Shown: positions 3,710 to 16,422 of the stretch, piece after piece
How positions within the stretch are numbered: the first letter of the stretch is position 1
How the letters are laid out: each line of letters starts with the position of its first letter
DNA from: Chloroflexota bacterium
GTDB lineage: Bacteria > Chloroflexota > UBA11872
Direction: 5' to 3'
DNA length: 64,000 bases
NCBI GenBank assembly: GCA_022821645.1
Contig: JAJEDE010000007.1
Span: 1 to 64,000, forward strand
Position numbers and translations under genes: made by a program
Notes under the pieces: model-generated
What the model was told of the DNA's origin: nothing
The model's input: the letters and a program-made list of their open reading frames with translations, nothing else
Database searches by the model: none

Positions 3710-3890
3710 ATGTCACCGTTGAAAGTGAGAATGTTCTGAGTGTCTTTCTATTCCATGTGGCCTACAACAATTCTGCTCGCCTTCACATTAGGATGACTCG
3801 GAGGTCCCAGCTTTCGTCTGCGGGAACTCAACGGGAACGCCGTGTGCCAATGACAGTGTTCCAGTCAGCTTAGTTGACGCGCCAAAGCTT
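3710..3890. other. Spacer before the coiled-coil gene array
   Basis: No gene, promoter or terminator could be supported in these 180 bases. Base composition stays AT-richer than average until the first array unit begins. Confidence 0.4.
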
Positions 3891-3910
3891 CGCCTGATAT
3901 AACTATCCAA

Positions 3911-4016
3911 CGGACCGTGGGCGGTCGGTTCGCAAACCTCTCAGCCACGCACGCCAGCGACGAGTTGGCAAGTCGCAGAGACGACGCGTGGCTAGCTCGC
4001 AAGGAGAACCGCCACG
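3911..4016 (+). promoter_or_regulatory. Conserved structured leader, unit 1
   Basis: CGTGG within 3915-3920 can pair with CCACG at 3945-3949, enclosing an almost perfect palindrome GGTTCGCAAACC at 3927-3938. A second hairpin can form between CGTGGC (3987-3992) and GCCACG (4011-4016), with the AAGGAG ribosome-binding site (4001-4006) in its loop. The same layout recurs in the other units, which suggests selection on RNA or DNA structure. Confidence 0.5.
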
Positions 4017-4040
4017 GACGCCACAGCCATCATCATCGCC

Positions 4041-4211
4041 ATGGTCACGGTCGGAGCAACAATCGTCTTTGCTGTCGGCGGCGCGGCTTGGCGACTCGGC
4101 AGTCGGCTGGGAGCCGTCGAGAAGGGCTTGGCAGTCTGCGAGTCCAACATCCGTGACTTGAACCGGAAAGTCGACCGCATCCTGGAGCGACTCCCTCCAC
4201 CGCCGTCCTAG
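4041..4211 (+). CDS. Array copy 1: short membrane-anchored coiled-coil protein
   Basis: 56 residues from the first ATG, or 65 if translation begins at the ACG at 4014, which lies seven bases after AAGGAG (4001-4006) where copy 4 has TTG. The ATG itself has no ribosome-binding site. A single membrane helix (VTVGATIVFAVGGAAWRLG) is followed by GAVEKGLAVCESN with a conserved cysteine, then a short amphipathic helix ending NRKVDRILERLPPPPS. There is no added coil segment, making this the shortest of the four paralogues. The helix and the final RKVDRILERLP are shared with copies 2-4. Function is unknown; a single-pass protein with a soluble stalk is inferred. Confidence 0.6.
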   Translation: MVTVGATIVFAVGGAAWRLGSRLGAVEKGLAVCESNIRDLNRKVDRILERLPPPPS

Positions 4212-4290
4212 CGGCTAGACACACCACTCGCCACTGCCCGTACCCGCCGGTTTGACTGGTTTGCAGACCGCCTGATACAAACAATCAACG

Positions 4291-4395
4291 AGCCGTGGGC
4301 GGTCGGTTCGCAATCCCTCCCAGCCACGCACGCCAGCGACGAGTTGGCAAGTCGCAGAGACGACGCGTGGCTACCTCGCAAGGAGAACCGTCACG
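4291..4395 (+). promoter_or_regulatory. Conserved structured leader, unit 2
   Basis: Same layout as unit 1: CCGTGG at 4293-4298, a degenerate palindrome at 4305-4316, CCACG at 4324-4328, then CGTGGC and GTCACG flanking the AAGGAG at 4380-4385. The second stem here needs one G-T pair. The 40 bases before the ribosome-binding site are almost identical to unit 1. Confidence 0.5.
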
Positions 4396-4419
4396 GACGC
4401 CACACCTGTCGTCATTACC

Positions 4420-4611
4420 ATGATCACCGTTGGAGCGACGCTGCTCTTGACTGTCAGCGGCGCAGCATTACGTCTCGGCAGTCGCCTTGGAGCCGTGGAA
4501 CAAGGCCTTGCAGGCTGCCAGTCTCAGATCCGTGAAATTCGAACCGACATCCGCGAACTCAACCGGAAAGTCGACCGCATCCTCGAACGACTCCCTCCAC
4601 CACCCGCGTAG
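4420..4611 (+). CDS. Array copy 2: membrane-anchored coiled-coil protein (63 aa)
   Basis: Residues 1-23 are a membrane helix (MITVGATLLLTVSGAALRLG), followed by GAVEQGLAGCQSQ with the conserved cysteine, IREIRTDIRELNRKVDR and the shared ILERLPPPPA end. Compared with copy 1 it has gained one heptad-sized coil segment (REIRTDI). As in copy 1, the AAGGAG at 4380-4385 is seven bases before an in-frame ACG (4393), giving 72 residues, while the first ATG at 4420 lacks a ribosome-binding site. The downstream flank is nearly identical to that of copy 3. Confidence 0.6.
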   Translation: MITVGATLLLTVSGAALRLGSRLGAVEQGLAGCQSQIREIRTDIRELNRKVDRILERLPPPPA

Positions 4612-4690
4612 CGGATCCGCCCATCATCCCGCGATGCCCGATCCCACCAGATTGACGAGCCCGAAGGCCGCCTGATACAAACAATCAACG

Positions 4691-4797
4691 AGCCGTGGGC
4701 GGCGGGTTCGCGAACCTTCCGAGCCACGGTTGCCAGCGACCAACTGGCGATCCGCACAGGCGGAACGTGGCTACCCGACAAAGGAGAACCGCCACGG
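4691..4797 (+). promoter_or_regulatory. Conserved structured leader, unit 3
   Basis: CCGTGG (4693-4698) pairs with CCACGG (4724-4729) around a perfect 12-bp palindrome GGTTCGCGAACC (4705-4716). CGTGGC and GCCACG again flank the ribosome-binding site AAAGGAG. The upstream GTG at 4695 is in frame with the gene here but not in units 1 and 2, so it is unlikely to be the start. Confidence 0.5.
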
Positions 4798-4820
4798 ACG
4801 CCACAGCCGTCATCATTACC

Positions 4821-5066
4821 ATGATCACCGTCGGGGGCACGCTAGTCCTCGCCATTGGTGGAGCAGCCTGGCGCATCGGCATGCGCCTCGGCATGGTCGA
4901 GCAAGGCTTGGCCGGCTGCGAGGACAACATCCGCGAACTGCGGATTGATGTTCGCGAATCTCGCGCCGAAAACCGCGCCAATACCCGCGTGCTGCGGACC
5001 GAAATCCGCGAAGTCAACCGCAAGGTCGACCGAATCATCGAACGGCTCCCTCCACAACCCGCGTAG
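4821..5066 (+). CDS. Array copy 3: membrane-anchored coiled-coil protein (81 aa)
   Basis: The same plan as copies 1 and 2: membrane helix MITVGGTLVLAIGGAAWRIG, GMVEQGLAGCEDN with the conserved cysteine, a longer coil (IRELRIDVRESRAENRANT, VLRTEIREVNRKVDR) and the shared end IIERLPPQPA. Two more coil segments are present than in copy 2. The AAAGGAG site again precedes an in-frame ACG at 4794 by seven bases. A longer frame opens at GTG 4695, but it covers the conserved leader, which is out of frame in units 1 and 2, so I regard it as non-coding. Function unknown. Confidence 0.6.
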   Translation: MITVGGTLVLAIGGAAWRIGMRLGMVEQGLAGCEDNIRELRIDVRESRAENRANTRVLRTEIREVNRKVDRIIERLPPQPA

Positions 5067-5145
5067 TGGACCTGCCCATCATCCCGCGATGCCCGATCCC
5101 ACCAGATTGACGAGCCCGAACGCCGCCTGATACAAACAATCAACG

Positions 5146-5248
5146 AGCCGTGGGCGGCGGGTTCGCGAACCTTCCGAGCCACGGGTCAGAGGCGTGCTGG
5201 CGGAACGCACCGGCGACGCGTGGCTATCTGACAAGGAGTTCCGCGTTG
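5146..5248 (+). promoter_or_regulatory. Conserved structured leader, unit 4
   Basis: CCGTGG (5148-5153) and CCACGG (5179-5184) enclose the perfect palindrome GGTTCGCGAACC (5160-5171). The middle of the leader is diverged, and the right arm of the ribosome-binding-site hairpin is changed, where the start codon is TTG rather than ACG. Confidence 0.5.
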
Positions 5249-5899
5249 GACGCCACACCCATCGTCGTCACCATGATCACCGTCGGCCTTACCCTGATCT
5301 TTGCCGTTGCCGGCGCGGCTTGGAGAGTCGGCATGCGCGTCGGTACCGTCGAGGAAGGCGTTAACGGTTGCGACCTCCGGCTCCGAGAACTTCGGCTCGA
5401 TGTCCAGGACCAGGGCGCTCGGCTGCACTCCGACATCCAGGGCGTTCGGACCGACGTAAAGACTGGCATCGATAGCCTGCGAACCGAGATGAATGACAAC
5501 ACCCAGCTAGTACGGACCGAGGTCCAGAACCTGCGCACCGACGTCAAGACCGACGTCCAAAGCGTGCGGACCGAGGTCCAGCAAGTTCGGACCGAAGTCC
5601 ACGATCTGCGGGCCGAGGTCAAGGCCGACATCCAACTCGTCCGGACGGAAGTCCGCGATCTTCGGACTGAGGTGAAGACCGACATTCAAGATCTCCGGTC
5701 CGAGGTTAAGACCGACATCCAGGATCTGCGAACCGACGTCAAGGCGAACATCCAGAACCTACGCAGCGACGTCAAGACCGACATGCAGGAACTCCGCACC
5801 GAAATGCACGACGACATCGACGATCTCCGGTCCGAGGTTCGGCAGAACAACGACAAACTCGACCGAATCCTCGAGCGCCTCCCGCAAACCGTCCCCTAG
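5246..5899 (+). CDS. Array copy 4: long membrane-anchored coiled-coil protein (217 aa)
   Basis: The TTG start at 5246 follows AAGGAG by seven bases. A membrane helix near residues 10-32 (MITVGLTLIFAVAGAAW) is followed by GTVEEGVNGCDLR with the conserved cysteine, then about 150 residues of uninterrupted repeats: 11-residue units such as LRTEVKTDIQD, LRSEVKTDIQD and LRTDVKANIQN mixed with 7-residue units such as VRTEVQQ and VRTEVHD. This 7/11 mixture is typical of slightly right- or left-wound coiled coils. The protein ends with NDKLDRILERLPQTVP, like its paralogues. Highly charged stalk, no enzyme motif. It could act as a tether or spacer at the membrane; this is inference. Repeat-rich coils also resemble Bdr-like and phage structural proteins. 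Confidence 0.75.
   Translation: MDATPIVVTMITVGLTLIFAVAGAAWRVGMRVGTVEEGVNGCDLRLRELRLDVQDQGARLHSDIQGVRTDVKTGIDSLRTEMNDNTQLVRTEVQNLRTDVKTDVQSVRTEVQQVRTEVHDLRAEVKADIQLVRTEVRDLRTEVKTDIQDLRSEVKTDIQDLRTDVKANIQNLRSDVKTDMQELRTEMHDDIDDLRSEVRQNNDKLDRILERLPQTVP
5425..5850 (+). repeat. 33-bp and 21-bp in-frame repeats inside array copy 4
   Basis: The coil-coding region is built from repeated segments of the type CTGCGAACCGACGTCAAGRC with unit lengths of 33 bases (11 codons) and 21 bases (7 codons). The change in unit length is always in frame. Such repeats readily expand or contract by slippage or recombination. Confidence 0.75.
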
Positions 5900-6092: not shown

Positions 6093-6425
6093 CTACCCCG
6101 GCGCCTCGGCCGCCAAGACCTGCGTAATCCAGCTGTTGATGCTCTGACCGCTCTCGGCCGCCGCCAGGGCCACCCGCCGATGCAACTCGCTCCCCAGCCT
6201 TAGCTGCAGCTTCCCCGAAAAAGGCGCCAACGGCTCCACCCCGTCCTCCCGGCAGGACGACAGGTACTCGTCAACGGACCGCTCGAACTCCAGCCGTAGT
6301 TCCCGCACCTCCGTCGCCTCGAACGTCGCGATGGGATACGCCCCGGTGTTCACGACTCGCCCGTGCAGCCGCTCCACCGAGCCGTCGTACTCCACCGTCG
6401 CCACGTAGCCCTTGTACTCCATCAT
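6093..6425 (-). CDS. hicB: HicB-family antitoxin
   Basis: A 110-residue protein. The N-terminal half (YKGYVATVEYDGSVERLHGRV) is a partially degraded RNase-H-like HicB fold; residues about 80-110 (LRLGSELHRRVALAAAESGQ, SINSWITQVL) form a ribbon-helix-helix/Arc-type DNA-binding end. HicB proteins neutralise HicA and repress the shared promoter. The start ATG overlaps the stop of hicA by ATGA (6422-6425), so the pair is translationally coupled. A second ATG directly follows and could serve instead. The gene order toxin then antitoxin is the usual one for hicAB. Confidence 0.88.
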   Translation of the reverse strand: MMEYKGYVATVEYDGSVERLHGRVVNTGAYPIATFEATEVRELRLEFERSVDEYLSSCREDGVEPLAPFSGKLQLRLGSELHRRVALAAAESGQSINSWITQVLAAEAPG

Positions 6426-6676
6426 GGTTCCACTCCCAGCGCCGCTGGGATCGCCGCAATGTCGCGCACCGTGGCCTGCCCCGTCTCCGGCCGCGGATGC
6501 GGGCGATGCACCACCATCCGATCAGTACCCTTCCTGAGCAGCACTCGCGATCCTGATCTCTCGACTACCTCCACCCCAACCGCCCTCAGCAACGACTCAA
6601 TGTCGCGCCAGCGAATCCCCGCAGGCGTCGGCCGAAGGAAGACCCGCTGCAGGGTGCGTCGGTGCGAAGCTCGCAT
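6422..6676 (-). CDS. hicA: HicA-family mRNA interferase toxin
   Basis: 84 residues with a double-stranded-RNA-binding-like fold. WRDIESLLRAVGVEVVERSG, SRVLLRKG and MVVHRPHPRPETGQATVRDI match the HicA subgroup with a GSR...HRPHP signature. The usual G-S-H catalytic histidine position is arginine here, and the histidines of HRPHP may take over, as in that subgroup. HicA cleaves mRNA when free of HicB. The start at 6676 (MRASHRRTL) is chosen by homology length; no Shine-Dalgarno is visible, and a longer frame begins at 6718. HicB downstream is coupled by a 4-bp overlap. Confidence 0.85.
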   Translation of the reverse strand: MRASHRRTLQRVFLRPTPAGIRWRDIESLLRAVGVEVVERSGSRVLLRKGTDRMVVHRPHPRPETGQATVRDIAAIPAALGVEP

Positions 6677-6919
6677 ACTGACGTCGATAGTACTACGAGC
6701 GGTACCACTGCTCCGCACAGAGAGGGGCCTGCTCGCCGGACGTTCGTCATCGGCCTAAGCCTCCGACGACGTGCGCCTCCCTGGCTGAGCCGAGAAACCG
6801 GCTCGGGTCCCGCAGCCGATTCCTCGGCAGCGACATCACCCTGGTCCCCAGCGAACTGGCAATCGTCGCGCCTGGCAGTCATCGCGTAGTGCAAGTCCTT
6901 GACGCTTGACCGCCTTGGG

Positions 6920-6948
6920 TTGCCCTCTGTTCTCGTTCAGTGTACACT
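6920..6948 (+). promoter_or_regulatory. Candidate sigma-70-type promoter
   Basis: TTGCCC at 6920-6925 is followed, after 17 bases, by TACACT at 6943-6948. Each hexamer matches the consensus at four of six positions. The -10 lies in a 10-bp palindrome AGTGTACACT that might be an operator. It would leave a leader of about 560 bases before the first sulfatase. Confidence 0.3.
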
Positions 6949-7069
6949 AGGCCTGACGTTCTCGCAAGCCTTCTCGGAGATCCCTCGTGTCCGCCGCGCC
7001 AGCCTGCTCCCCGAGATTCCGACCAGGGCTCCCCAGCACGCCCCGCTTCGGAGTCCTCCGGGCCCCGCG

Positions 7070-7110
7070 GCGCCTCAAGAGTTTTTTGGAAAAAACTCTT
7101 ACCCGCGCGA
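7070..7110. repeat. 41-bp hairpin repeat, copy 1
   Basis: An inverted repeat with 11-base arms AAGAGTTTTTT and AAAAAACTCTT around GG, flanked by GCGCCTC on the left and ACCCGCGCGA on the right. All 41 bases are identical in copy 2. The A/T-rich stem contrasts strongly with the GC-rich surroundings. It could act as a bidirectional terminator or be a short interspersed palindromic element. Confidence 0.8.
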
Positions 7111-7354
7111 CAACCCGACTCCGGCGCCTCGCTCCCGGTTTCTCTTCACCGCCACCGCAACGGCCCCGTTCTACGCCAGGCTCGATCCCCGTCGCGCTCG
7201 GCTTCTCCAGGTTCGTGGTCAGCTCGTCGACCTTGGCCACCCTCTCCCGCGGCTACGGCACTGTCCGGCACTCCGCCCCCTCCGCGCCTGCCAAACCCGA
7301 CCTCCCGTTGTCCGTCCCCAACCCCTCCGAATTCGCGCCAGAACACACCCCGCC

Positions 7355-7395
7355 GCGCCTCAAGAGTTTTTTGGAAAAAACTCTTACCCGCGCGA
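7355..7395. repeat. 41-bp hairpin repeat, copy 2
   Basis: Identical to 7070-7110 and in the same orientation, 285 bases further on. The sequences between and around the copies are unrelated, so the element itself, not a longer segment, was duplicated or selected. Confidence 0.8.
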
Positions 7396-7511
7396 GGGCC
7401 ACGTTTCTGGCCCCATCCGCCGCCGCTCCCAACTCGCATCCCGCCGCCCAAGTTGAGCCGCCCGCCCCCAGGCGGTACCGTCAGGCGCAGCCTGCCCACG
7501 GGACACGCCGC

Positions 7512-8969
7512 ATGAGCCAGGATCAGAGCCGCCCCAACGTGCTGCTCATCATCACCGACCAGCAGCGCGGCGACTGCCTCGGCATCGACGGCCACCCCGT
7601 CCTGCAGACGCCCGCCATGGACTGGCTCGGAGCCTCCGGCACCTTCTTTCGCCGCGGCTACTCCGAATCCCCCTCCTGCATCCCCGCCCGCCGCGTCCTC
7701 ATGTCCGGCCGCCCGCCCGACGAGGACGGCATGGTCGGCTTCATGAGCGCCCCCTGGGACCCGCCCGCCACCCTCGCCGGCGAACTCCGCGCCGCTGGCT
7801 ACGAAACCCGCATGGTCGGCAAGCTCCACCTCCATCCAAAGCGCCACCGCTTCGGCTTCGATGTCCTTGAACTCGCCGACTCCACCCGCGCCGACGACAA
7901 CGAATACCTCGACTGGCTCCAAGGCGAATTCCCCCTCGACCGCTGGGCCATGGCCCACGGCGCCACCCCCAACGGCTGGATCGGCCGCCCCAACCACCTC
8001 CCCGAGGAGAAGACCCACACCTTCTGGTGCGTCTCCCGCGCCATCGAATACCTCGAAAAACGCGACCCCTCCTGCCCCTTCTTCCTCAACGTCTCCTTCA
8101 TCGATCCCCATCCCCCGATGACCCCGCCCGACTGGTTCTACGACCGCTACGCCGCCATGGACCTGCCCGAACCCGCAATGGGCGACTGGATGGAACCCTG
8201 GGATGGCCCGCCCCGCGGCATCCCCGCCGAAAAGGGCCCCTACGGTCAGCGCGGCCCCATCGACCCGGACGCCATGCACAACCTGCGCGCCGCCTACTAC
8301 GGCCTGATCAACCACATCGACATGCAACTGAGCCGGCTCTTCCAGTACATGCGCGACAACGGCCTGCTGGAAGAGACCTTCATCGTCTTCGTCAGCGACC
8401 ACGGCGAGATGCTGGGCGACCACCAGATGTACTCCAAGTGCCGCGCCTTCGACGCCTCCGCCCGCGTCCCCTTCCTGGCCCGCGCCCCCCAGCGCATGGG
8501 CTTGCCCCGCGAGGTCGTCTGCGACCAGCCCGTCGGCCTCCAGGACCTCATGCCCACCATCCTCGAAGCCGTTGGCGCGCCCATCCCCGAGTCCGTCAGC
8601 GGCCGCAGCCTGCTCCCACTAATGCGCGGCGAGGACGCCGACTGGCGCCGCTACCTGCACGGCGAGCATTGCGGCATGTACCGCTACATCGACGGCAATC
8701 ACTGGCTGGTCGATACGCGCTACAAGTACATCTGGATGAGCCAGACCGGCCGCGAACTCTTCTTCGACCTCCACGAAGACCCGCTCGAGGAGCGCGACCT
8801 GTCAGCCCAAGCCGACCTCACGCCCTGGCGCGAACACCTCATCGAGGTCCTACGCGACCGCCCCGAGGGCTTCACCGACGGCCAGCGCCTGATCCCTGGC
8901 CAACCCCACGAGCACATGATTCCAACCATGGTCCCGCCGGGCATCACCGTGACCCGGCCCAAGCTCTAG
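7512..8969 (+). CDS. Type I sulfatase (485 aa), first of a tandem pair
   Basis: An alkaline-phosphatase-superfamily sulfatase. The N-terminus RPNVLLIITDQQRGD gives metal-binding Asp16 and neighbours. Residues 56-60 CIPAR are the formylglycine signature (C-x-P-x-R), so Cys56 needs conversion to formylglycine. VSDHGEMLGDH near residue 295 gives the second metal-site Asp-His. There is no signal peptide, so it should act in the cytoplasm on imported sulfate esters or related phospho/phosphonate esters. Start ATG at 7512 is chosen at the family N-terminus; the open frame extends upstream through the hairpin repeats. The next gene, 11 bases on, is a close paralogue, indicating tandem duplication. 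Confidence 0.9.
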   Translation: MSQDQSRPNVLLIITDQQRGDCLGIDGHPVLQTPAMDWLGASGTFFRRGYSESPSCIPARRVLMSGRPPDEDGMVGFMSAPWDPPATLAGELRAAGYETRMVGKLHLHPKRHRFGFDVLELADSTRADDNEYLDWLQGEFPLDRWAMAHGATPNGWIGRPNHLPEEKTHTFWCVSRAIEYLEKRDPSCPFFLNVSFIDPHPPMTPPDWFYDRYAAMDLPEPAMGDWMEPWDGPPRGIPAEKGPYGQRGPIDPDAMHNLRAAYYGLINHIDMQLSRLFQYMRDNGLLEETFIVFVSDHGEMLGDHQMYSKCRAFDASARVPFLARAPQRMGLPREVVCDQPVGLQDLMPTILEAVGAPIPESVSGRSLLPLMRGEDADWRRYLHGEHCGMYRYIDGNHWLVDTRYKYIWMSQTGRELFFDLHEDPLEERDLSAQADLTPWREHLIEVLRDRPEGFTDGQRLIPGQPHEHMIPTMVPPGITVTRPKL

Positions 8970-8980
8970 CGGGGCGCCTG

Positions 8981-10501
8981 ATGCCCGACAAGCAACCCCA
9001 CATCCTGCTGATCATGACCGATCAGCAGCGCAACGACGCGCTCGGCATCGCCGACCATCCCGTCCTGCAGACGCCCAGCATGGACTGGATCGGAGCCTCC
9101 GGCACCCGCTTCCGCCGCGGCTACACCGAGTCCCCCGCCTGCATTCCCGCCCGGCGCGTTCTCATGTCCGGCCAGGCGCCCTGCGTCAACGGCATGGTCG
9201 GCATGACCGGCGGCATGCCCTGGGATCCTCCGGCCACGCTTGCCGGCGAACTCGGCAACGCGGGCTACGAGACCCGCATGATCGGCAAGATCCACCTCTT
9301 CCCCAACCGCCGCCGCTTCGGCTTCGACGCCATGGAGCTGGCGGACAGCACCCGCGGGACGGACAACGACTACCTGGACTGGTTGCACGGCGAGATCCCC
9401 CTCAACCGCTGGGCCATGGCCCACGGCGCAACCCCCAACGGCTGGATCGGCCGACCCAACCACCTGCCTGAGGAACTCACCCACACCTTCTGGTGCGTCT
9501 CCCGCGCCATCAATTTCCTCGAGCGTCGCGACCCCAGCCAGCCCTTCTTCCTCAACCTCTCCTTCATCGACCCCCATCCCCCCTTCACCCCGCCCAAGTT
9601 CTTCTTTGACCGCTACGCGGAGATGGATCTGCCGCAGCCGGTCATCGGCGACTGGGTAGAACCCTGGAAGGGCCCCGATCGCGGCATCGACCCGGAGGTT
9701 CGTTCCGAGCGGCGCTTCTACCGCCGCGGCATGAATCTCGATCCGCTGCCCATGCACTACATGCGCGCCGCCTACTTCGGAATGATCAACCACATCGACA
9801 TGCAACTCAGCCGCCTCTTTCAGTACATGCGCGACAAGAGCCTGCTGGAGGACACGCTGATTGTCTTCGTCAGCGACCACGGCGAGATGCTGGGCGACCA
9901 CTACCACATCGCCAAGAGCTTCCCCTTCGAAGCCTCGGCTGGGATTCCTTTCCTCATCAACCCGCCCGAGGCCTGGGGCGCCCCGCGTGCCCAGGTTCTC
10001 GACCAGCCCGTGGGACTCCAGGACGTCATGCCCACCCTGATCGACGCTGCCGGCGCTGAAATCCCGTCCTCGGTCACCGGCCGCAGCCTCGTGCCGCTGG
10101 TCCGCGGCGAGTCGCCCGCCTGGCGCGACGCGCTGCACCTCGAATACGCCAGCGGCGCCGGATCTGAACTGGCGCTCGGAACGACGCAAGACGAACCCCC
10201 GCCCGCCGAACAGCAATGGGCCCGCGGCTGGCACGCCCTGGTCAACGACAGCCACAAGTACATCTGGGAAAGCCAGACCGGTCAGGAACTGCTATTCGAT
10301 GTCCGCAACGACCCATTTGAGGAACGCGACCTCTCCTCCCAGACCGACCTCGGCCCCTGGCGTCAGCGCCTGATCGAGCAGCTCCGCGACCGCCCCGAAG
10401 GCTTCACCGACGGCTCACGGCTCATCACCGGCCGCCCCCACGATCACATGGTCCCCGGACTCGCCCCACCCAACTACAACCCCGGCCCTCCCGTCTACTA
10501 G
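8981..10501 (+). CDS. Type I sulfatase (506 aa), second of a tandem pair
   Basis: A close paralogue of the preceding gene along its whole length (for example HATPNGWIGRPNHLPEE-like core, INHIDMQLSRLFQYMRD, VSDHGEMLGDH). Metal ligands come from MTDQQRND; residues 54-58 CIPAR form the formylglycine site. It has a short insertion before the C-terminal KYIWESQTGQELLFD block. No signal peptide is present. Its TAG stop at 10499-10501 shares the tetranucleotide CTAG with the stop of the convergent MFS gene. It probably works with the adjacent transporter on related substrates; specificity cannot be read from the sequence. Confidence 0.9.
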   Translation: MPDKQPHILLIMTDQQRNDALGIADHPVLQTPSMDWIGASGTRFRRGYTESPACIPARRVLMSGQAPCVNGMVGMTGGMPWDPPATLAGELGNAGYETRMIGKIHLFPNRRRFGFDAMELADSTRGTDNDYLDWLHGEIPLNRWAMAHGATPNGWIGRPNHLPEELTHTFWCVSRAINFLERRDPSQPFFLNLSFIDPHPPFTPPKFFFDRYAEMDLPQPVIGDWVEPWKGPDRGIDPEVRSERRFYRRGMNLDPLPMHYMRAAYFGMINHIDMQLSRLFQYMRDKSLLEDTLIVFVSDHGEMLGDHYHIAKSFPFEASAGIPFLINPPEAWGAPRAQVLDQPVGLQDVMPTLIDAAGAEIPSSVTGRSLVPLVRGESPAWRDALHLEYASGAGSELALGTTQDEPPPAEQQWARGWHALVNDSHKYIWESQTGQELLFDVRNDPFEERDLSSQTDLGPWRQRLIEQLRDRPEGFTDGSRLITGRPHDHMVPGLAPPNYNPGPPVY

Positions 10502-11730
10502 CGGCGTCCCCCCGCCATCCGCACCGCCTCCGGCCGCCGCCGCAACGCCAGCATCGAAACAACCCCAAACACCGGCCCCACCGCCAACAGCCCAAACGCC
10601 GCCGCCCAATGCGGCCCGCCATCCACCAGCAGCCCAACCAGGTGAATACTCACAAACGTCAGCAGAAACCCAATGCAGATCTGCATGGTCAACGCGGTAC
10701 CCACGTACTGGGACGGGCTCAATTCCGAGATCGCCGCCGAGAACTGTGCCGAGTCCGCAATCACGCTGAACCCCCAAACCAACATGACCGGCGCCAGCAC
10801 CCACAGCGGCGCATCCGCTAGCAACGCCACAGCAATCGCCGCGCTCCCGCTCACCGCCATCGCCCCAGCCGCCGTCACCGACCGCCCCACCCGGTCGGCA
10901 ATCCAGCCTCCGGCCACTGCTCCACCCCCACCAACCGCAATCACCGCAAACGCCAACCCCGCCGCCAACTCCGGCTCCCCGCCTTCCCGTGCCACGACCT
11001 GCGCCAGAAACAGCGGTATCCAGGCCCACATCGCATAGAGTTCCCACTGATGGCCCAAGTACCCGAGCGTCGCCAGCCGTAGCCCCGGCGCGCGCACGAT
11101 CTCAAGCGCGAACCGAGGATTGAACCGAGCCGCCGGCGCCGCAAACGGCCCCTGCCGAACCCCGCCCAGCACCAGCAGTCCCGCCACCATCGCCAGCCCC
11201 GCCGTAACCAGCACCACCGGCCGCCATGACGCATCCAGCAACGCCCGAACCAGGTGAGGGCTCGCCGATCCAATGGTCAGCGCGCCCACGATCAGACTCA
11301 ACGCTAGCCCCCGACTACGACGGGTCCAAGTGGCGGCCAGCTTCAAACCTGGTGGATACACACCCGCCAGAAACGCTCCAGTCAGGAAACGCAGGACCGC
11401 TCCGTCAAGCGGGCCAGTGGCAATCACGGCAAGACCGGCAGTCGTCAGGGCCGCGCCGGCGGCACTGAGTGCGAAGAGTCGCGACGCGTCGAAGCGATCG
11501 GGAATGTTCAGAACGCCGCTCACCAGCGTTCCAGCTACGAATCCCAGCTGCACGGCCAGCGTCAGCCATGCGGCCGCTCCAGCCGTGAGCCGCCACTCAG
11601 TTTGGATCAGCGGCGCTACCGCGGCCGCGCTGAACCATGGCGCCAGCGCCAGCAACTCGGCCAGCGTCAGCAAGCCCAGACTGCGCCACCGTCGGACGCC
11701 GTCCTCGGCCGCAGGCAAGACCCTGGTCAT
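10498..11730 (-). CDS. MFS transporter (410 aa)
   Basis: A 12-helix major facilitator. Helix-rich sequence throughout, with a cytoplasmic basic loop after helix 2-3 and a conserved motif-A-like GGWIADRVGRSVTAAG in the second half. The first half contains GVYPPGLKLAATWTRRSRG. It is an inner-membrane secondary carrier; the substrate is unknown but the convergent sulfatase pair makes an organic sulfate, sugar or organic acid attractive. The ATG at 11730 is the family start. It ends tail to tail with the second sulfatase, sharing CTAG. The next gene on this strand upstream is the binding protein, separated by a strong terminator. Confidence 0.8.
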   Translation of the reverse strand: MTRVLPAAEDGVRRWRSLGLLTLAELLALAPWFSAAAVAPLIQTEWRLTAGAAAWLTLAVQLGFVAGTLVSGVLNIPDRFDASRLFALSAAGAALTTAGLAVIATGPLDGAVLRFLTGAFLAGVYPPGLKLAATWTRRSRGLALSLIVGALTIGSASPHLVRALLDASWRPVVLVTAGLAMVAGLLVLGGVRQGPFAAPAARFNPRFALEIVRAPGLRLATLGYLGHQWELYAMWAWIPLFLAQVVAREGGEPELAAGLAFAVIAVGGGGAVAGGWIADRVGRSVTAAGAMAVSGSAAIAVALLADAPLWVLAPVMLVWGFSVIADSAQFSAAISELSPSQYVGTALTMQICIGFLLTFVSIHLVGLLVDGGPHWAAAFGLLAVGPVFGVVSMLALRRRPEAVRMAGGRR

Positions 11731-11831: not shown

Positions 11832-13481
11832 CTAGCGATTGACGTCACCCATTGACAGGCCGTCCTGGAACTTCTTGAGAAGCCCATTGACCTGTTCGCT
11901 TGCCTTCTCCAGCGATTCCTGAGCCGACGCTTCGCCGACCAGCGCGCGGTCCATCTGTGGTCGCCAGAGGGCGCGGATCTCGGAGTAGAAGCCGCCCGGC
12001 ACGTACCACTGCATCGCCCGCAGATTCGGGTTGGCAATGTACTCGTACAGGTGGTGCATGCCTTCCGGCGGCGCGGCGTTCGCCACGGGTAGGTCCGCAA
12101 CTTCCTTCCACAGCGGCAGGTGACCACGGTCAATGGAGACGCGACCCTGCACTTCCGGTCCGGCGAGGAAGTAGACCCATTCAACCGCCTGTTCTTCCAC
12201 GCCGGTCACAGTGGCCGTACCGGCCACGATGTGCGGCTGGTCGTTCCACTCAAAGTTGGCGTGGTTGGTGTTCTCGCCCCAGGGCATCGGCCCCAGTGAC
12301 CACTCGAAGCGGTCGGAGATGCGTGGCGCACGGAAACCGGTGCTGTAAACAACTCCACCAATCTCAACGGCCTGCTTGCCCGCCGAGAAGGGGTCGCCAA
12401 ACTCGGCCGACAGGTCGCCGCGCTGCTCAGGCGTGTAGGACACGTTGTCCTTGTGGATGTAATCCACAATGTCCTGCCAGCCCTGCCAGCCGTCGTTCAG
12501 CGGCGGACCCCAGATCTGGGCACCGTCGGGTCCGTCGACGCGTGCCTGGCCATTGTTGTATCCGTACATCTGCGGGAAGACCTGGAACTGCTCGGATCGC
12601 GTGGCGCGAATTCCAAATATGTCGTTCTCCGGGTCGCGCAGCTTTCGCATTTCTTCCAGCAGGTCGCTGTAGCGCATGCCTTCGCTTGGCTGGTTCGCTC
12701 CCGCCGCCTCAAACAGCGTGACGTTGTAGGCGAGTCCCCCAATTGCGCCTTGGTACGGCATTCCGTACAAGGGCCCCTGCAGACGGGTGGAGTCGTACGG
12801 GTAGCTCTGGTCCATGTTGTCCGAGTAAATGTCGGGCTGGAACCAGTAATTCGACGGGTCGTAGCCGTCCTTCTTGGCCAGGATGTCGTCGATGTTCAGC
12901 CACACGCCCGCACCCTGGAACTGCTGGAAGGATACGCCGTTGAGCAGGTTCGACTCGGAGAGCGTGCCGGCCACCGCTTCCACGGCGATCTTCTCGTAGT
13001 AGATGTGGTCCTGCGGGATGAACTTGACCTTGATGTCAGGTCGCTCAACCGCAAATCGCTCGATTGCCCACTGCATGGCCGCGCCACGTGGACCCGAGGT
13101 GTGGTCGGTGGCGTGCTCGATCTTGACGGTGCGAGTTACAGGCGGCGCCTCCTGAATCACTACCTTCTCGACGACCTTCTCGACCTCGACCGTCTGCGTT
13201 ACGACCTTCTCGACCTCGACGACCTTCTCGACCTCGACCGTCTTCGTGACGACGCGATCGACTTGCTGGGTCACGATCTTCTCGACCGGGACTTCCCTGA
13301 CCTCAGTCTCACGGACGATCTTCTCGACCGGGACTTCCTTGATCACCGTCGTCTCGACCGGGACTTCCTTCGTGACGACCTGCGTCTCACCGCAGGCTGC
13401 CAAGGCTGCCAGTCCGGCAATTCCAGTTGCTCCAGCGGCAGCGCCTCGCAGCATATGCCGTCGTGAAATCAATCGACGCAT
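11832..13481 (-). CDS. ABC transporter solute-binding lipoprotein, family 1, Tat-exported
   Basis: 549 residues. The start ATG at 13481 follows GGGAGG by a few bases. The N-terminus SRRHMLRG is a twin-arginine motif, followed by a hydrophobic stretch and the lipobox LAAC with Cys30. Residues about 35-125 are a Val/Glu/Lys repeat linker (VEKIV, EVPVEK, VEVEKVV) that is characteristic of Chloroflexota binding proteins. The rest is a periplasmic-binding fold of the sugar/oligosaccharide type (PDIKVKFIPQ, GPLYGMPYQGAIGGLAYNV, AVEWVYFLAGPEVQG). It would deliver a carbohydrate to an ABC permease, but no cognate permease genes are adjacent, so it is an orphan here. The nearby sulfatases make a sulfated sugar an appealing guess. 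Confidence 0.88.
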   Translation of the reverse strand: MRRLISRRHMLRGAAAGATGIAGLAALAACGETQVVTKEVPVETTVIKEVPVEKIVRETEVREVPVEKIVTQQVDRVVTKTVEVEKVVEVEKVVTQTVEVEKVVEKVVIQEAPPVTRTVKIEHATDHTSGPRGAAMQWAIERFAVERPDIKVKFIPQDHIYYEKIAVEAVAGTLSESNLLNGVSFQQFQGAGVWLNIDDILAKKDGYDPSNYWFQPDIYSDNMDQSYPYDSTRLQGPLYGMPYQGAIGGLAYNVTLFEAAGANQPSEGMRYSDLLEEMRKLRDPENDIFGIRATRSEQFQVFPQMYGYNNGQARVDGPDGAQIWGPPLNDGWQGWQDIVDYIHKDNVSYTPEQRGDLSAEFGDPFSAGKQAVEIGGVVYSTGFRAPRISDRFEWSLGPMPWGENTNHANFEWNDQPHIVAGTATVTGVEEQAVEWVYFLAGPEVQGRVSIDRGHLPLWKEVADLPVANAAPPEGMHHLYEYIANPNLRAMQWYVPGGFYSEIRALWRPQMDRALVGEASAQESLEKASEQVNGLLKKFQDGLSMGDVNR

Positions 13482-16345: not shown

Positions 16346-16361
16346 TGTTTCACGTGAAACA
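16346..16361. other. parS: parS site 1
   Basis: TGTTTCACGTGAAACA, an exact 16-bp match to the canonical chromosomal ParB-binding parS palindrome. It lies between the divergent start of the hydrolase and the end of the ankyrin gene. ParB loads here and spreads, and ParA then segregates the origin region. No parA or parB gene is in the window. Confidence 0.93.
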
Positions 16362-16406: not shown

Positions 16407-16422
16407 TGTTTCACGTGAAACA
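16407..16422. other. parS: parS site 2
   Basis: Second exact copy of TGTTTCACGTGAAACA, starting 61 bases after the first and 3 bases beyond the ankyrin gene's stop codon. Two exact copies this close are not expected by chance. Confidence 0.93.

Follow-up and report, generated by a model that had tools for sequence, protein, structure and literature searches.

Results

A twinned palindrome upstream of a sulfatase gene

The window analysed here is a 64,000-nucleotide stretch from a Chloroflexota bacterium (assembly GCA_022821645.1, contig JAJEDE010000007.1, positions 1 to 64,000 of the forward strand). The same 41-mer, GCGCCTC-AAGAGTTTTTTGGAAAAAACTCTT-ACCCGCGCGA, stands at 7070-7110 and again at 7355-7395, and we could verify both copies of the two identical 41-bp hairpin elements, 285 bases apart, described by an earlier sequence-only reading. 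The core of the 41-mer, which we call P, is a perfect 24-nt palindrome, AAGAGTTTTTT-RG-AAAAAACTCTT. At up to three mismatches the core matched only two sites in the window (7077-7100 and 7362-7385), and it had no match in 100 dinucleotide-preserving shuffles of the window. A second motif, S, precedes the first copy, and the features around the pair are as follows.

6093-6718, minus strand: HicB/HicA toxin-antitoxin pair (PF05534, PF07927), directly left of S
6920-6967, plus strand: motif S (pattern match on both strands; position-weight matrix score 63.1; consensus)
6968-7076, plus strand: spacer from S to the first P, C-rich and G-poor by sequence
7077-7100, plus strand: first copy of P, with 11-bp arms and centre GG, within the 41-mer 7070-7110
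7101-7361, plus strand: 261-nt stretch separating the two copies of P, from alignment with loci L113 and L116
7362-7385, plus strand: second copy of P, within the 41-mer 7355-7395
7512-8969, plus strand: sulfatase gene 1 (PF00884), start codon 126 bp past the second P
8981-10501, plus strand: sulfatase gene 2 (PF00884), part of a C-skewed block (skew -0.56)
10498-11730, minus strand: MFS transporter gene (PF07690), plus strand C-skewed (-0.57)
11832-13454: gene after the MFS transporter gene, skew +0.09

The sequence around the two copies had been called unrelated, which holds only in part, as the module of the first copy has a 5' part, S (6920-6967), that recurs elsewhere; from S to the end of P the window is 77% identical to locus L022 over 185 bp. 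The 261-nt stretch between the copies has a single match beyond itself in the compared DNA, of 26 nt. In the orthologous loci L113 and L116, S is followed by a single P with the sulfatase gene 126 bp on, whereas in the window a second P, 261 nt past the first, comes before the sulfatase gene. The single P in these orthologs implies that the window pair came from an insertion or duplication ending at P, or from loss in the orthologs. Given the 26 exact copies described below, we rejected local duplication as the whole story and kept it as the origin of the second window copy.

P is dispersed within one clade

P is a dispersed palindrome specific to a single clade of uncultured Chloroflexi. G000, the genome that contains the window (3.55 Mb in 28 contigs), holds 26 exact copies of the core pattern AAGAGTTTTTTNNAAAAAACTCTT and 2 copies with the symmetric double change TTTCTT/AAGAAA, with neither single-mismatch copies nor matches to a reversed-pattern control. 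A looser frame, AAGAG-N14-CTCTT, returned the same 28 and none extra (reversed control, 1 per strand), and one half-copy, at C20:152357, ends just beyond the centre. The density is about 1 copy per 130 kb. This genome-wide count, which the sequence-only reading had proposed, agrees with its suggestions of a recurrent module of this genome and of more than a terminator needs, there being 26 exact copies and no T-run after the stem; far from occurring only here, the element has copies dispersed throughout the genome.

We scanned 61 genomes for copies with up to two differences. P was present in 11 of the 13 genus genomes, at 6-28 copies each, and in 0 of 48 genomes of relatives from other genera at this threshold; among the genus members it is missing from G002, a single 3.0-Mb contig, and from G003, which is 76% complete. 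The 11 genomes together hold 201 copies, of which 182 are exact and 6 carry one change; of the remaining 13, 7 were listed with two changes and 6 derived by subtraction, their sequences unread. A scan of named genomes gave at least 103 stretches; among the 80 matches listed, 79 came from Chloroflexi/Chloroflexota MAGs and 1 from Alistipes. The Alistipes match and locus L157 both have an AT centre and flanks unrelated to those of the other copies, and we dismissed them as fortuitous. The exact P and S patterns were found in no viral contig of a viral collection, on which we rejected a phage origin, and the exact P strings were not found in a full-text literature search with preprints outside its coverage.

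The arms of P are near-invariant and its centre is asymmetric

Oriented copies share their flanks as well as their core. CCCC at -14 to -11, a variable stretch and CCTC lead into P, positions -4 to -1 being mostly C, C, T and C (42, 47, 43 and 43 of 48 cluster representatives). On the 3' side, the first base is A in 46 of the 48, the next C or T and the one after T, G or C; a short G/C-rich stretch then leads to CCC about 15-17 nt past P. We rejected an intrinsic terminator on its AT-rich stem and the A that follows where a T-run belongs.

The centre of P is asymmetric, reading GG or AG on the S-to-P strand: with the central pattern left free, 115 distinct contexts passing a flank filter carried GG (93), AG (21) or CC (1). 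At position 7014 of L096 the core is inverted amid otherwise normal flanks. The arms, which include T6/A6 in the stem, hardly vary. Two of the six single changes fall inside the stem (positions 17 and 18), where the S-to-P strand retains a U-G pair in both cases; two others affect the loop-side pair (11 and 14) and two the stem foot (23 and 24). TTTCTT/AAGAAA, present at two loci each in G000 and G001, is the sole double change that keeps every pair; of the 4 doubly changed copies observed in G001, 2 have incomplete pairing. As RNA, the 41-mer folds at -15.4 kcal/mol (z = -3.7), and the reverse strand of P folds as well as the forward strand. That all A-T pairs are kept argues for recognition of the sequence, which a DNA-binding protein would explain equally. 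A search of window positions 6850-7550 against Rfam 15 gave no family match at E up to 1.

S accompanies P in a fixed order

S is a dyad, TTGC-N15-AGTGTACACT-N15-GCAA, with the consensus TTGCC, then AGTGTACACT, then GCAA at mirror distance. S and P occur jointly in one order, S standing 0.1-0.8 kb to the left of P (median distance 265 nt). Scored with a matrix trained on 61 sites from these same loci, S exceeded 12 in 88 of the 95 units having 1000 nt of left sequence; neither right flanks nor shuffles passed this score. Read on the reversed strand, the left sequence likewise exceeded 12 in 51 of the 95 units, and at one locus (L037 and L138) S scored higher on that strand. The direction of S is therefore uncertain, since the near-dyad passes on the reversed strand as well. 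From its composition (TTGCCN, in the window TTGCCC; 17 bp; TACACT) we infer that S may be a sigma70-like promoter aimed at P.

Searched for on its own in G000, the S pattern TTG-N16-AGTGTACANT has 20 sites, 17 of which lie within 1.1 kb of an exact P; the remaining three comprise one with a half P, one at a contig end and one without P. Of the 13 genus genomes, the 11 that have P are also those that have this pattern; outside the genus it turned up in two genomes, each from a different genus. From S to P, units of unrelated loci can be aligned, and their spacers, pooled over all loci, are C-rich and G-poor (C 0.49, G 0.21). S and P, the approximate conserved ends of the unit, differ in sequence. 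We rejected a leader peptide at S, as an ATG is present in some copies and absent in others.

Two further observations concern the spacer. At about 5690-5838 of L162, at the end of G000 contig C15, some 150 nearly pure C follow soon after an S site, which may reflect a sequencing artefact or else a genuine C-rich spacer. A second, GC-rich type of hairpin recurs in spacers (about 250 nt left of P in L031; at about 6586-6640 in L164), and is also seen upstream of valS in L180, where other genomes have P.

Units lie beside unrelated genes

We clustered the right-hand genes of 120 loci into 49 ortholog groups, of which 38 are co-directional with the unit and 11 convergent (tandem arrangement, ++ versus --, 15:5, p = 0.04). 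Where the gene is co-directional, the called start lies a median of 97 bp past P, with 27 of 38 groups falling within 41-141 bp; genes were called with a home-made codon-usage caller whose starts may err, three clusters starting within 2 nt of P. At all seven loci of the amylo-glucosidase (glycogen debranching enzyme) cluster, P lies 35-47 nt from the start codon, which leaves little room for a promoter between them, and transcription of this gene probably starts at or left of P.

A Pfam scan of 40 of the 49 cluster representatives, 8 of them without a match, identified right-hand genes for sulfatase, dapF, a fabF-like synthase, UvrD helicase, HisG, a class-I tRNA synthetase, the glycogen debranching enzyme, aldehyde dehydrogenase and others; the convergent ones include DNA polymerase I and hydantoinase B. 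On this diversity among the 40 representatives scanned, we rejected a single-pathway regulon. A class-I activator geometry was also rejected, the spacing from P to the -10-like box of the next gene being variable at a few loci judged by eye (about 24-56 nt).

P is constrained in place while the unit is gained or lost

At the orthologous dapF site, P is kept letter for letter. Having located dapF by protein, we found the identical 24-mer upstream of it in all seven P-clade genomes in which that DNA was readable; the adjoining 100 nt on the left of P differ by 37% on average (range 4-57%). S was seen within 420 nt in six of these seven genomes, and dapF in G002 has no unit. An unchanged P amid diverged surroundings argues for selection on P in place. 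Across 151 ortholog pairs the core differs by 0-1%, except for 19% at the centre purine, whereas ungapped comparison at 15-40 nt gave differences of 21-62% in the left flank and 9-41% in the right; this conservation is partly circular, most loci having been fetched through the exact P pattern. Because the identity is partly by construction, the claim of constraint rests on loci found without P.

The unit as a whole comes and goes. At valS, 2 of 12 genomes have an exact P, 1 has a P with one change and 9 have none. Four genomes show a compact junction between valS and an upstream transporter-like gene (judged by eye) with a conserved promoter-like box, the three unit-bearing genomes carry the unit upstream of the same box, and the remaining five have other DNA. 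Since the unit lies upstream of an older promoter-like box, it is not evident that P at valS belongs to the main transcript's leader. By eye, no target duplication was recognised between occupied and unoccupied valS alleles. At polA, four genomes carry P, in two cases exact and in two with the symmetric double change, and six lack it within 700 nt; G005, available for only 322 nt downstream, is counted with neither.

Comparison with known systems

Processive antitermination leaders such as put, nut and ops place a strand-specific signal between a promoter and unrelated genes. The S-P arrangement resembles such leaders in layout. Another nearly invariant inverted repeat close to gene starts is CIRCE, which is bound by HrcA and has 9-bp arms and a 9-bp spacer; P shares these general properties but is unlike CIRCE in sequence and spacing, and chaperone families were absent from the Pfam matches near P (40 of 49 right-hand-gene representatives scanned, 8 matchless).

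Correia-type and other bacterial MITEs are known to have promoter and hairpin functions. Like the S-P unit, they are small, dispersed and intergenic (for example PMC2229807, PMC5896051). The S-P unit differs in that neither inverted terminal repeats nor a target duplication could be recognised and in having one end that is invariant in place. The HIP1 element of cyanobacteria, an 8-mer present at high frequency, is likewise an over-represented, clade-specific palindrome of unclear function (PMC4390886); P differs in being 24 bp long, in reaching at most 28 copies per genome and in its tie to S.

In REP elements the stem measures 5-13 bp and the loop 2 bp or more, many families comprise 20-100 units or fewer, and the super-families are defined by a GTAG/CGTC tetranucleotide at the palindrome end (PMC3733652). 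P is similarly short, dispersed, intergenic and clade-specific, with an 11-bp stem, a 2-nt centre and tens of copies. It differs in its AT-rich arms, its S partner and its near-invariance. No GTAG or CGTC tag stands at the palindrome end in 48 cluster representatives, and the RAYT/IS200-type Y1 transposase family PF01797 was detected in 0 of 13 genus genomes versus 5 of 14 control genomes. We therefore rejected membership of the GTAG/CGTC REP/RAYT super-families, and the earlier suggestion of a REP-like element is unsupported.

Candidate roles for the S-P unit

We favour, tentatively (probability of roughly 0.36), a reading in which P is the gene-proximal end of a clade-specific, dispersed and host-constrained cis module, made up of S, the C-rich spacer and P, that would act as a strand-specific leader element. 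S would be the promoter, and its transcript would carry P as an RNA hairpin with a 10-pair stem and a loop containing RG; alternatively, the transcription machinery would read P in the non-template strand. A sequence-specific factor would recognise P and act on the transcription or the mRNA of the DNA to the right, be it by conditional antitermination, attenuation or mRNA stabilisation, and a C-rich, G-poor spacer would suit a Rho-sensitive leader. We prefer a transcribed, strand-specific element because the centre is asymmetric and near-invariant, S is one-sided and most ortholog groups point at a start codon. Against it stand the 11 of 49 convergent clusters and right-hand genes that share no common pathway. 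That a 24-mer next to dozens of unrelated genes is near-invariant and has a promoter-like partner speaks for a clade-private recognition system, and the near-invariance of P offers a clear handle for finding its factor.

Two other readings come close to the leader reading in likelihood, a DNA operator and a mobile-element end. The first, which we hold to be possible though doubtful, has a dimeric regulator or nucleoid protein of the clade binding the 24-bp palindrome and controlling or insulating neighbouring promoters. The perfect dyad unchanged at dapF, the symmetric TTTCTT/AAGAAA change at two loci each in G000 and G001 and the nearness of P to gene starts would all suit such a site. A symmetric dimer, however, needs no asymmetric centre with a nearly invariant G at position 13, the lack of a common pathway among right-hand genes counts here too, and one copy per 130 kb or so is few for a nucleoid protein.

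It is somewhat unlikely that S and P are instead the ends of a non-autonomous, MITE-like element that spread within the clade, the need of a transposase keeping P invariant. The alignment of units from S to P at unrelated loci, the presence or absence of the unit at valS (3 versus 9 of 12 genomes) and polA (4 versus 6) and the HicAB pair left of the window unit are in keeping with mobility. Decayed copies are few, however, with 17 exact P and one half P at the 19 evaluable S sites of G000, and P is intact at the dapF site in all seven genomes. S and P are moreover unlike in sequence, no target duplication was recognised and no gene was called between them; PF01797, the sole transposase family searched, is missing from the 13 genus genomes, as are P and S from viral contigs. 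Of the MITE-like label given by the sequence-only reading, a history of gain and loss, as at valS and polA, thus survives as possible, while terminal repeats, target duplication and transposase were not recognised.

Strand bias around P

The strand carrying the unit is rich in C over G around P. Skew on the unit strand in the 250 nt left of P is -0.43 in the window's own genome and -0.36 in the others, and the C-skew fades over about 5 kb rightward and faster leftward. Its sign does not depend on whether the right-hand gene is co-directional (98 loci) or convergent (20 loci). At fourfold sites lying 0-500 bp past P on this side, the unit strand has C 0.82 and G 0.11 in genes on that strand, and C 0.76 and G 0.18 in genes on the opposite strand. 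The ratio of C to G at silent sites of co-directional genes adjoining P is thus about 7:1, and the association of P with such strongly asymmetric blocks makes the origin of local strand bias in bacterial genomes a testable question. By right-gene cluster, skew is negative in 41 of 43 (median -0.685), including 8 of 9 convergent ones. In G000, 25 of 26 right-hand genes are negative, and 17 of 26 exceed 0.6 in size versus 21 of 310 background genes; left-hand genes are negative in 10 of 13 cases (median -0.16).

The window follows this pattern. Fourfold-site skew on the plus strand of sulfatase gene 1 is -0.67 when the gene is called as 7215-8969, or -0.74 when taken as the first gene right of the second P, and the C-skewed block spans about 6.1-11.7 kb with an abrupt end, stopping after the MFS transporter gene because the gene at 11832-13454 has a skew of +0.09. 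More widely, in 20 stretches of 20 kb from G000 (L218-L237) and in window 6093-11730, the genome appeared as a mosaic of blocks with fourfold G- or C-bias on one strand regardless of gene direction, some with sharp sign changes, as near 3 kb in L221. No other palindrome recurred at skew peaks, judged by eye in the 20 stretches.

Decay of the skew with distance speaks for P as its cause. At dapF, third-position skew is -0.60 to -0.65 in eight clade genomes versus -0.16 in G002; among the matches listed, 18 single-genome P clusters have a median skew of -0.44 versus -0.74 in 27 larger ones (p = 0.004). Against P as the cause of the C skew, the polA skew is the same without P and the skew at valS fails to follow P. 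Genes of the polA block lie at -0.73 to -0.88 in genomes with the unit (G000, G004, G007) and without it (G006, G009, G011), and the last 1.5 kb of polA is skewed alike in all six P-free genomes, whose silent sites there differ by 12-19% (saturation for the composition of G009 being 27%); G002 and the other genera tested show no strong polA skew. The unit is therefore not needed for skew blocks, and G000 indeed has skewed blocks without P; the unit tends to occupy their left edge. We consider it improbable that S-P units start a directional, strand-specific process of kilobase range that rewrites silent sites from G to C over about 5 kb rightward, with P as its recognition signal. Antiterminated transcription and strand-specific DNA synthesis would be examples of such a process, which would act whatever the gene direction.

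Least probable is a site-specific recombination site, with two 11-bp arms and a directional 2-bp core, at which segments were inserted upstream of genes: the P-X-P order of the window versus the single P of its orthologs, the inverted core in L096 and the half-P at C20:152357 would fit, but only one close tandem pair exists among the 28 copies in G000, and perfect palindromes are inherently unstable, which can explain both inversion and half copies.

Other observations in the window

To the left of some other units, toxin-antitoxin, restriction or ATPase-like genes were noted by eye. At window positions 3874-5899, repeats of about 380-455 bp stand in tandem and contain small ORFs, and similar small membrane or coiled-coil ORFs also occur left of some other units. 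Two exact TGTTTCACGTGAAACA sites lie at 16346-16361 and 16407-16422 of the window; we take TGTTTCACGTGAAACA to be the parS consensus, in which case the window may be close to a replication origin.
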